Origin: Archangium gephyra
GTDB taxonomy: Bacteria > Myxococcota > Myxococcia > Myxococcales > Myxococcaceae
Direction: 5' to 3'
Length of the DNA: 64,000 nucleotides
Assembly (NCBI RefSeq): GCF_001027285.1
Contig: NZ_CP011509.1
Span: forward strand, 11,804,501 to 11,868,500
Numbering within the stretch: position 1 is the first letter of the stretch; each line of letters begins with the position of its first letter. The translations under genes were made by a program, and so were the position numbers. Shown here in pieces: positions 13,382 through 19,596 of this stretch. The notes beneath the pieces were generated by a model. It was given only the letters and a program-made list of their open reading frames with translations. It ran no database searches and was not told where the DNA came from.

Positions 13382-14227
13382 TCAGGGAGAGGCACAGGTA
13401 ATGGTGTCGAGCATCGTCACGTTCGCATTGCCCGTGGTGCTCCAGGGGCCCACGCCGCCGGTGCCATTGATGAAGGAGTAGGCCGTGGAGCGGAGGCTGG
13501 TGGTGTAGCCCTGGGACGAGGCGTAGCCGTTGTCCTGGCAGAAGCGGCGAGCGGTGTCCGCGGCGCTGGAACCCGTCGTGGGGTAGTAGGTCCCCACGTA
13601 GTACCCGTTGACCATCGGGCCCGAGAAGGTGACGCGGGTGCCGGAGCAGGTGATCGAGTCGAGCATGGTGACGTTCGCATTGCCCGTGGTGCTCCAGGGG
13701 CCCACGCCGCCGGTGCCGTTGATGAAGGAGTAGGCCGTGGAGCGGACGCTGGTGGAGTAGCTCTGCGCACCCGCGTGGTTGCGGTCCTGGCAGAAGCGCC
13801 GGGCGGTGTCGGCCGCGCTGGAGCCCGTCGTGGGATAGAGGGTGCCCACGTAATACCCGTTCACCATCGGGTTCGGATAGGAGGTGGTGGACACGTCACC
13901 ACAGGTGATCGAGTCGAGCATCGTCACGTTCGCATTGCCCGTGGTGCTCCAGGGGCCCACGCCGCCGGTGCCGTTGATGAAGGAGTAGGCCGTGGAACGG
14001 ATGCTGGTGGCGTAGCTCTGCGCGCCCGCGTGGTTGCGGTCCTGGCAGAAGCGGCGGGCGGTGTCGGCCGCGCTGGAGCCCGTCGTGGGATGGAGGGTGC
14101 CCACGTAATACCCATTCACCATCGGGCTCGAATACGTGACGGACGCCGCACTGGCCGGCATCGACAAGCCCAGCGCCACGAACACGAACGCGAGACACGA
14201 AGACAGACGCACACCCTGCTGACTCAT
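13382..14227 (-). CDS. Secreted protein made of three near-identical ~84-residue repeats
   Basis: 281 residues from ATG 14227; the frame is open to 14275 but the signal peptide (VRLSSCLAFVFVALGLSMPASA, cleavage near residue 27) fits the later start. The mature protein is almost entirely three tandem units. Each runs PMVNGYYVGT, then PTTGSSAADTARRFCQD, then STAYSFINGTGG, then GNANVTMLD and a closing ITC. Two Cys per unit could pair within the unit. No catalytic motif is visible and I know no named family; repeated extracellular units suggest adhesion or ligand binding. The repeats are also nearly identical as DNA, so copy number may vary. Confidence 0.75.
   Translation of the reverse strand: MSQQGVRLSSCLAFVFVALGLSMPASAASVTYSSPMVNGYYVGTLHPTTGSSAADTARRFCQDRNHAGAQSYATSIRSTAYSFINGTGGVGPWSTTGNANVTMLDSITCGDVSTTSYPNPMVNGYYVGTLYPTTGSSAADTARRFCQDRNHAGAQSYSTSVRSTAYSFINGTGGVGPWSTTGNANVTMLDSITCSGTRVTFSGPMVNGYYVGTYYPTTGSSAADTARRFCQDNGYASSQGYTTSLRSTAYSFINGTGGVGPWSTTGNANVTMLDTITCASP
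13409..14150 (-). repeat. Three tandem DNA repeats of about 252-255 bp
   Basis: The block starting GAGCATSGTSACGTTCGC on the plus strand begins at 13409, 13661 and 13916, giving periods of 252 and 255 bases, exactly 84 and 85 codons. Stretches of many tens of bases are identical between units at synonymous positions too, so the duplications are recent or kept homogeneous by gene conversion. Confidence 0.88.
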
Positions 14228-14305
14228 TCCACTCCTCCACTCAACCGAAAGGGGGAGGGACTGTAGCCAATTCAAGAAAAAACAGGAAGGCTAGATGAAA
14301 CGGAT

Positions 14306-17770: not shown

Positions 17771-18019
17771 TCATGAGCCCGCTTGGGGCCCGCCCACCAC
17801 CTTGGAGACCGCCGCGACGATCTCCTGCTCGGTGGGGAAGGCGACCGACTCCTTCTTCACCACGGGGGTGCCATCCACATCCACGATGAAGCTGCCGGAG
17901 GGACCCACCTTCAGCTCCGCGTCCAGGTTCAACTCCTTCTTCAATGCGGCCGCCGCACGGACGGCCCGAGGCCTGTAGCCTCAAGCACCGCAAAACGTGA
18001 TGGTGATACGGGATGCCAT
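17771..18019 (-). CDS. selW: Selenoprotein W-like (SelT/SelW/SelH family), Sec encoded by in-frame UGA
   Basis: Read from ATG 18019, with GGAGG 7 bases upstream, the frame meets TGA at 17983-17981 (codon 13), then stays open to a second TGA at 17773-17771, giving 82 residues. The N-terminus ITITFCGA-U-GYRPRA is the SelW/Rdx redox motif CxxU (Cys10, Sec13), and GAUGY matches animal SelW. The remainder (KKELNLDAELKVGPSGSFIV, then VDGTPVVKKES and PTEQEIVAAVSKVV) follows the thioredoxin-like Rdx fold and has strong third-position GC bias. A hairpin with a bulged U and a GU loop lies just downstream of the UGA. Likely role: a thiol/selenol oxidoreductase in the cytoplasm. A conventional gene caller would truncate or miss it. 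A Cys-to-stop mutation (pseudogene) is the alternative. Confidence 0.82.
17948..17966 (-). promoter_or_regulatory. SECIS-like hairpin downstream of the UGA
   Basis: On the minus strand, counting the U of UGA as 1, GGCCG (18-22) pairs with CGGCC (32-36). U23 is bulged, CC (24-25) pairs with GG (30-31), and the loop is GUGC (26-29). Bacterial SECIS elements need a stem-loop close behind the UGA with a bulged U and a GU in the apical loop, both recognised by SelB. The upper stem here (2 bp) is shorter than in E. coli fdhF, so this is a candidate, not a proof. Confidence 0.5.
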
Positions 18020-18111
18020 GGCGAGCCTCCGGTTCATGGGGCGCGAGAAGTGCGCCTCCCTGGGGTGTATCCATTGAAATAACGGGCCACGAGGAGCGTG
18101 CAAGCAGGCAA

Positions 18112-18570
18112 TCAGATGATGCCCTTCTTGAGCTTCTCCGGATCGATGAATTCCACCCGCAGGTGTGCGGGGCTCAAATGGTCGAAGTCCTTGTCTGTCG
18201 TGAGCAGGACAGCCGACTGCACGTGCGCCACAGCTGCAATCCAGACGTCGTTCTTTCCCATCGAATGGCCTGATTGGCGGCTCAGCTGGTCGAGCCTCGC
18301 ATACGCGCCAATCACCAGGGAGGACGAGATGTCCACCGTGGGAAGCTGCGCCAGCAGCGAATCGAGCCCCAGCTGTTGCTCGGGCCCCCAGCCGAACTGG
18401 AACGCCAGCGATTTGAGCTCGCCCTTGACGACCACGGGGACGAGCGCGCGAGGACGACGCGCACCGATCGCGTACTCCTGTTCGATCAACGCTCCAGCGG
18501 CTCCCTTCTTGCGCAGCAGATGAACCAGCACGTTCGTGTCGAGAACGAGCTGCTCCCCAGGCAACCTCAC
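18112..18570 (-). CDS. PIN-domain ribonuclease (VapC-like toxin)
   Basis: 152 residues forming one PIN domain, normally a Mg2+-dependent RNase that cleaves tRNA or rRNA as the toxin of type II systems. The four acidic residues are present: Asp11 in LVLDTNVLVHLL, Glu51 in VKGELKSLAF, Asp108 in GKNDVWIAAVA, and Asp126 in LTTDKDFDHL. Its ATG lies inside the end of the upstream gene (overlap 18567-18570), so translation is coupled as in toxin-antitoxin pairs. The partner is a 304-residue protein instead of a small VapB. Myxobacterial PIN proteins of this form may serve regulation or phage defence; the target is unknown. Confidence 0.82.
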   Translation of the reverse strand: MRLPGEQLVLDTNVLVHLLRKKGAAGALIEQEYAIGARRPRALVPVVVKGELKSLAFQFGWGPEQQLGLDSLLAQLPTVDISSSLVIGAYARLDQLSRQSGHSMGKNDVWIAAVAHVQSAVLLTTDKDFDHLSPAHLRVEFIDPEKLKKGII

Positions 18571-19481
18571 GACAACTCCTCCAGGGCCTGGAAGAGGGTG
18601 TCGTCCGTCTCTTCACCCGGCCAGCTCCCGAGGAGGCTCTGCCACTCTGGAGCATTCTGGTGCACCACCCCCTGGGAAGGGCCCGCCTCCCCATGGGGCA
18701 GGCGCGCCCACAAGGTGTCGCTGGCCACCGAGGAAGCGGCGTGATCCACCTCGATACGCAGTGCATCGCCCGAGGGCCTGAAGGTCACGAGTCCCTCGAC
18801 CACGACCCGCGCGCCCAGGAGTGTCTTCAAGGTCTCCAAGGTCGCGCCCACCGCGAGCCCTCGGAGCACCTTGCCGTCATCGAGCCTCAACATCAGCGCC
18901 CTGGTGCTCACCGTGAGCGCATCCAGCACTCCCGACACCCGGTCCACGCGAGGTGCGGGAGTGTCCCTGGCGAGTGCCAGGATGCGCTGCGAGCTCACGG
19001 AATCGATCATGACCATCCGCCGGCCCGTACTCTCACGGATACGGAGACTGGCCACCCCTCGGTTGGAGAGAGCATGAGTCCGGGCAAGCACCTCCAGCAC
19101 TCCGGTATCGAGCAACTCGCTGCCCCGATGCCCGTCCACCGCATCGCTCGCCGCCTCCAGGAAGGCATCGAAGGCCGTCGCATCGGGGGCGAGGATCCTC
19201 TGCTGCGAGAAGACCTCGGGAGCAACCGCGTGGAGCTCCGGGGCTGAAACGGAAAGGGAGAGCGAGCCCCGCTCGTAGCGGCCCACACGAAGATCCGCCG
19301 CGGATGCCAACCAGGAGGGCATTCCACGAGCCACACTCCGCCCCTCCACGGCGAGCCGGGTGGCCCGCTGTGCCCCTTCCACGAGCAGGTCGCAGAGGTC
19401 CCTCAGCAGGCTCAACGGCATGTCGAGGGCGTCTACCCCCTCCAGTTGCACTTCGTAGGTCCGTCTCTGCCTCGCCGCCAT
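18567..19481 (-). CDS. Hypothetical protein coupled to PIN nuclease (putative large antitoxin)
   Basis: 304 residues from ATG 19481 with GGAGG 4 bases upstream. Soluble, no signal peptide and no Cys-rich motif. The N-terminal half is rich in alpha/beta pattern (TYEVQLEGVDALDMPLSLL near the start); the second half contains a segment near 200-260 with beta-strands (RALMLRLDDGKVLRG, ARVVVEGLVTFRPSGDALRI) reminiscent of a small barrel. No AbrB, RHH or Phd DNA-binding motif is visible. Its stop overlaps the PIN start by 4 bases, so it is probably the cognate partner of the nuclease, either antitoxin or target-specifying subunit. I do not recognise the family. Confidence 0.7.
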   Translation of the reverse strand: MAARQRRTYEVQLEGVDALDMPLSLLRDLCDLLVEGAQRATRLAVEGRSVARGMPSWLASAADLRVGRYERGSLSLSVSAPELHAVAPEVFSQQRILAPDATAFDAFLEAASDAVDGHRGSELLDTGVLEVLARTHALSNRGVASLRIRESTGRRMVMIDSVSSQRILALARDTPAPRVDRVSGVLDALTVSTRALMLRLDDGKVLRGLAVGATLETLKTLLGARVVVEGLVTFRPSGDALRIEVDHAASSVASDTLWARLPHGEAGPSQGVVHQNAPEWQSLLGSWPGEETDDTLFQALEELS

Positions 19482-19596
19482 CAGGCCTCCCACGCACCCT
19501 CCATCCTGTCCCATATCAACAGCCCTTCATGCAGCCAACGACCTGCCAGGCAGGACGCATTCCAGGAGAGGATTGACGCCTGGACACATTGGAGCC

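Follow-up and report, generated by a model that had tools for sequence, protein, structure and literature searches.

A putative selenoprotein W-like gene with a conserved in-frame UGA in Archangium gephyra and other myxobacteria

The soil myxobacterium Archangium gephyra has a genome of 12.49 Mb on a single contig, of which we analyzed a stretch of 64,000 nucleotides (the window). On the minus strand of the window, positions 17771-18019 hold a selW-like gene of 82 residues that is interrupted by an in-frame UGA at codon 13 (17981-17983, minus strand), the second residue of a CxxU motif. The frame runs from an ATG at 18019 to a TGA stop at 17773-17771 and reads MASRITITFCGA-UGA-GYRPRAVRAAAALKKELNLDAELKVGPSGSFIVDVDGTPVVKKESVAFPTEQEIVAAVSKVVGGPQAGS-stop. 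A Shine-Dalgarno-like GGAGG (18026-18030, minus strand) lies 6 nt before this ATG, and a second in-frame ATG is located 18 nt upstream of it. No Met occurs in the translated frame between the UGA and the end stop, and the GC content after the UGA is 0.68, 0.46 and 0.88 at the three codon positions. On re-reading the sequence, we found the frame, motif, UGA and end stop to be as described in the original prediction, which had also noted the Shine-Dalgarno sequence, the absence of an ATG after the UGA and the GC bias at third bases, all of which are borne out by these values.

The surroundings of the gene were compared at 96 homologous loci, using stretches that reach about 1.5-3 kb. The genes that recur near selW are a PLP decarboxylase (41/96), a downstream gene of 123 aa (22/96) and dapD (20/96); these point to no pathway and suggest no functional link. 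Just upstream of selW, a PIN-domain gene overlaps with a second gene, of 315 aa, that matches no Pfam family (together 18112-19514, minus strand). Within the reach of these loci, this pair is found in only two of the 96 (this genome and G040), and it is perhaps a recent insertion. Elsewhere in the window, a 297-aa protein (13382-14275, minus strand) contains three tandem, very similar repeats of roughly 80 residues, as read from the sequence.

The assignment to the SelW/Rdx family in the original prediction agrees with profile searches. The protein scores above the cut-offs of Pfam Rdx (PF10262; E 6.2e-11, 42.8 bits, cut-off 22.6) and TIGR02174 (40.6 bits, cut-off 34.2). It also matches the equivalog model NF041051 (SelTWH_Campy) with E 6.7e-16, but the 58.3 bits are under the cut-off of 88. 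The active site is Cys10-Gly-Ala-UGA13-Gly-Tyr, and in an alignment of 51 of the 96 homologues, columns 10 and 13 (with Sec written as Cys) are invariant, as is Tyr15. The motif of mammalian SelW is CGAUGY, and the original prediction had called the GAUGY sequence animal-like. The sequence is present as claimed; however, exact CGAUGY occurs in only two of 74 homologues in the host's bacterial family, among which there are nine motif variants, and so it says nothing on kinship with animals.

A structural model of the 82 residues, built with the same alignment of 51 of 96 homologues, has a pLDDT of 81.3. Its elements are ordered strand-helix-strand-strand-strand-helix, where the first strand covers residues 5-10, the first helix covers residues 16-30 and the CxxU motif is at the end of the first strand. 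The model thus predicts a thioredoxin-like Rdx fold. Its best matches in the PDB are bacterial SelW-related proteins, with TM about 0.8 and an E-value of 2.6e-6 for 3dex. Fold and family are common to the myxobacterial protein and 3dex, 2fa8, 2oka, 2ojl, 2obk and 2p0g. However, these six are Cys forms (CTQC in 3dex), whereas the second motif position of the myxobacterial gene is UGA. Mouse selenoprotein W (2npb) is the last of 23 structure matches with E up to 0.001. It resembles the myxobacterial protein in fold (E 6.8e-4) and in a profile match (E 5.6e-6), but has only 27% identity to it in the structural match.

We then consider the UGA itself. A genome search found a SelW homologue in 74 of 96 genomes of the host family, and codon 13 is TGA in the best copy of every one of the 74. 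Across the phylum, 96 of the 195 genomes searched had a SelW homologue. Of the 22 that lie outside the host family, 21 carry TGA at this codon, and G151 alone carries TGC. In one family genome, G021, the UGA copy is followed directly by a diverged paralogue whose motif is CVTC (L090:2662-2889, minus strand). A separate sequence collection yielded at least 66 SelW relatives, of which at least 40 have TGA and at least 26 have TGC or TGT; these proportions are not frequencies, given that Cys codons were written into one of the two search patterns. Among the matches listed, the TGA relatives are by title from myxobacteria, Deltaproteobacteria and Gemmatimonadota, and the TGC/TGT relatives are mostly from Chloroflexi and Cyanobacteria-related groups.

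The codons after the UGA are under purifying selection. Across six genomes of the same genus, the codon alignment downstream of the UGA gives a pN/pS of 0.27, or 0.24 for the first 63 codons, while the other two frames give 1.63 and 1.77. Because the ratio is low in the SelW frame and above 1 in the others, the frame is not a product of chance. An uncorrected comparison of all pairs among the 74 sequences gave 0.52 after the UGA and 0.28 before it. In that comparison, pS is probably lowered by saturation and by the hairpin described below, and we therefore rely on the values obtained within the genus.

Downstream of the UGA is a hairpin at 17948-17966 on the minus strand, in which 17966-17960 pair with 17954-17948 around a 5-nt loop, CGUGC (17959-17955). 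Counting the U of UGA as 1, a 14-nt spacer is followed by 7 bp formed between nucleotides 18-24 and 30-36; the spacing is 21 nt, and the hairpin alone has a folding energy of -11.8 kcal/mol. Animal SECIS elements sit in the 3' untranslated region, whereas this hairpin is inside the coding sequence. It fits the bacterial SECIS model as set out in the relevant part of PMC13188914.

Evidence that the hairpin is conserved comes from 78 distinct UGA-bearing sequences. Of the 546 pair cells, 524 hold standard pairs; 16 additional types of pair occur, and five of the seven pairs have changed on both sides. When the 3' side was slid by 1-6 nt, at most 380 cells and at most 12 further types were obtained, although a slide by -3 also gives changes on both sides in five of seven pairs; when the 3' letters were redealt in 500 trials, the mean was 480 cells and the maximum 489. 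The loops are CGTGC (50 sequences), CGGGC (10), GGTCT (5), CGTGT (5), AGTTT (4), CGGGT (2) and AGTCT (2); the host family has the CGUGC/CGGGC type, and families farther away have loops of the GGUCU/AGUUU type. Two of the four-fold codons examined show no variation at the third base (GCC 58/58 and GCG 69/69), and both belong to the hairpin; variation is seen in most of the codons beyond it. The Arg codon in the hairpin is CGT in 64 of 74 sequences, CGG in 10 and CGC in none; in five selB genes, CGC is the commonest CGN codon (0.54) and CGT accounts for 0.14.

Folding energy gives a different picture. In this genome, the 45 nt after the UGA are of ordinary stability for their composition (z -0.46, with 61 of 200 shuffles as good), and in four genomes 31, 753, 380 and 40 of 2000 synonymous recodings at least equalled the energy of the hairpin. 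At least five of the seven pairs are present in the best fold of the 45 nt for 61 of 74 family sequences and 15 of 22 others; when the 19-nt stretch is folded by itself, this number is reached for all 74 and for 21 of the 22. Rfam had no match at the SelW locus with E up to 1, and SECIS_1 (RF00031) had none across the genome, its control likewise being without a match anywhere, so that this absence carries no weight. In this GC-rich genome, folding energy by itself does not pick out the SECIS element, which is instead marked by its pairing, its covariation and its frozen third bases.

The original prediction implied that the organism makes selenocysteine, and the gene set for this is complete, with selA, selB, selC (tRNA-Sec) and selD all found. 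The two genes whose joint absence would speak against selenocysteine are over their cut-offs, namely selB in a profile search (G000:C1:2690322-2692232) and the tRNA-Sec, which has anticodon UCA and scores 73.2 bits (C1:5552058-5552152). The selA gene is at C1:7492343-7493662. The selD gene has its own in-frame UGA (context NCAG-U-AAK) and a hairpin whose loop is the GUC of GGUCC. A formate-dehydrogenase-like gene also contains an in-frame UGA, NQARI-U-HSS (L188:1924-1926, within C1:273520-274272), and is a probable third selenoprotein of the genome; a 23-nt stretch after this UGA forms a hairpin around a GGUCU loop (-12.2 kcal/mol), but a 54-nt fold favours another structure. Another formate-dehydrogenase-like candidate (L185) was not counted as a selenoprotein, as its TGA falls where the match ends. 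As a separate observation, four tandem Pxr-type small RNAs are found about 4 kb past selB (L009:14415-15443), three of them above the Rfam gathering score and one below.

The machinery is also widespread in the host family. In the 96 genomes, selA and tRNA-Sec are each over cut-off in 88, though the tRNA-Sec of G022 only barely so (47.6 bits, cut-off 47), and selB is over cut-off in 32 of the 39 genomes searched, which were drawn from the same 96. SelW and selA occur together in 72 genomes, SelW alone in two (G025 and G041), selA alone in 16 and neither in six (Fisher p 0.0016, a value that ignores kinship and assembly gaps). Because selA was found in the absence of SelW in 16 genomes, of which 15 also have tRNA-Sec over cut-off, SelW looks dispensable. 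In G025, selA was not found and neither selB nor tRNA-Sec was over cut-off, yet both its SelW and its selD contain UGA; the missing genes likely reflect an assembly gap in a genome that is 87% complete and in 900 contigs. In two further drafts, selA was not found (G041) or tRNA-Sec was not over cut-off (G009). While other members of its genus have selA, in the complete two-contig genome G062 neither selA nor tRNA-Sec is over cut-off, the SelD match is without TGA and SelW was not found, making it a candidate for recent loss of selenocysteine decoding.

Outside the host family, the 22 genomes with SelW offer a natural comparison of Sec and Cys forms. In 20 of them selA is over cut-off (all but G106 and G151), and in 18 tRNA-Sec is (all but G114, G116, G125 and G151). 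Thus G151 is the only one to fail both cut-offs, and it is also the only one with the Cys form. In its Cys gene, all seven hairpin pairs can still form around GGUCU at the place of the SECIS element. The 19-nt stretch alone folds as this hairpin (-8.6 kcal/mol), but longer stretches favour other folds; a fossil SECIS left by a change from Sec to Cys is possible, no more.

Taken together, the comparison shows a conserved UGA13, predicted genes for the synthesis and insertion of Sec, and a hairpin of the SECIS model after the UGA. Along with the restriction of the Cys form to G151 among the 22 genomes, these observations support the Sec reading of UGA13, as the original prediction had it. The gene very probably encodes a bacterial SelW-like selenoprotein in which Sec is delivered at UGA13 to give a Cys10-Sec13 redox protein. 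Under this reading, SelA and SelD would make Sec-tRNA(UCA), and SelB would bind the selW hairpin and deliver the charged tRNA at UGA13. The protein would fold like thioredoxin, and Cys10 and Sec13 would form a reversible selenylsulfide while reducing an oxidised substrate, after which a cellular thiol or thioredoxin may reset the pair. Fold and motif suggest this redox function.

It is important to consider other explanations of the UGA. An in-frame UGA is, in general, the usual sign of a sequencing error or a pseudogene, and the original prediction had recognised that TGC or TGT might be the true codon at 17981-17983. However, all 74 family homologues share this TGA, which excludes a sequencing error, and neither an error nor a pseudogene is expected to show TGA in 21 of 22 homologues outside the family or purifying selection downstream; we regard this explanation as the least credible of those considered. 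We find it almost as hard to believe that the UGA is a true stop, either ending a leader peptide or followed by a restart at an in-frame GTG or TTG. Such codons do occur downstream, and a hairpin after the UGA would suit a leader peptide, but the conserved motif spans the UGA, with Cys10 and Tyr15 invariant in the 51 aligned proteins. In addition, the first strand of the model (residues 5-10) is ahead of the UGA, and the sole Cys form among the 22 has a sense codon rather than a stop at this position.

Reading of the UGA as Trp or Cys, with no selenium involved, is similarly very improbable. Near-cognate read-through of UGA does occur in bacteria, but it accounts neither for a covarying hairpin with a bacterial SECIS layout nor for a full Sec gene set, and among the 22 genomes the Cys form is found only where selA and tRNA-Sec are both under cut-off.

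Selenoproteins of this kind are not new in bacteria. SelW-like selenoproteins have been reported since at least 2005, and the myxobacterial SelW joins this known family. In the relevant parts of PMC1088965, SelW-like is the most abundant selenoprotein family in the Sargasso Sea set, its CXXU motif is said to suggest a redox function and the function is called unclear. Table 4 of PMC1794560 names SelW-like beside Geobacter sulfurreducens and Desulfotalea psychrophila, and SelW-like selenoproteins also appear in PMC2398784, PMC9312934 and PMC13188914. The passages on these proteins, which include reports from the Sargasso Sea and ocean metagenomes, describe features also found in the myxobacterial gene (PF10262, CxxU and a bacterial SECIS element after the UGA), but name no myxobacterium (PMC1088965, PMC1794560, PMC2398784, PMC9312934, PMC13188914). 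Among the terms looked for, PMC5029168 has no mention of SelW or of myxobacterial names. In the open-access literature, no paper on selenoproteins in myxobacteria was found among the matches listed; Archangium with selenocysteine gave none, and Myxococcus xanthus with selenoprotein gave only papers unrelated by title. The closest published work found deals with SelW-like proteins of other bacteria. The myxobacterial SelW appears to be a widespread, unreported selenoprotein. In the portion of PMC12013277 concerned with annotation, 195 of 298 known selenoprotein genes in 20 genomes were annotated correctly. Gene callers that read UGA as stop would lose the 82-residue selW, probably in many myxobacteria.

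Within the phylum, nearly all SelW copies found are of the UGA form, and in the 96 genomes of the host family SelW is either of this form or not found, save for one diverged Cys paralogue. We put forward, as a tentative idea that may well be wrong, that SelW in the host family is a near-obligate selenoprotein, one of few Sec-decoded genes, with a lineage-specific CGUGC/CGGGC loop as against the GGUC-type loops of selD and the formate-dehydrogenase-like gene. If true, one SelB would read two classes of loop, and the coevolution of SelB and SECIS elements could be tested in an aerobic social bacterium. SelW would add a selenoprotein to the genomes of bacteria whose predation, development and natural products have attracted much study, and would offer a natural comparison of Sec with Cys.
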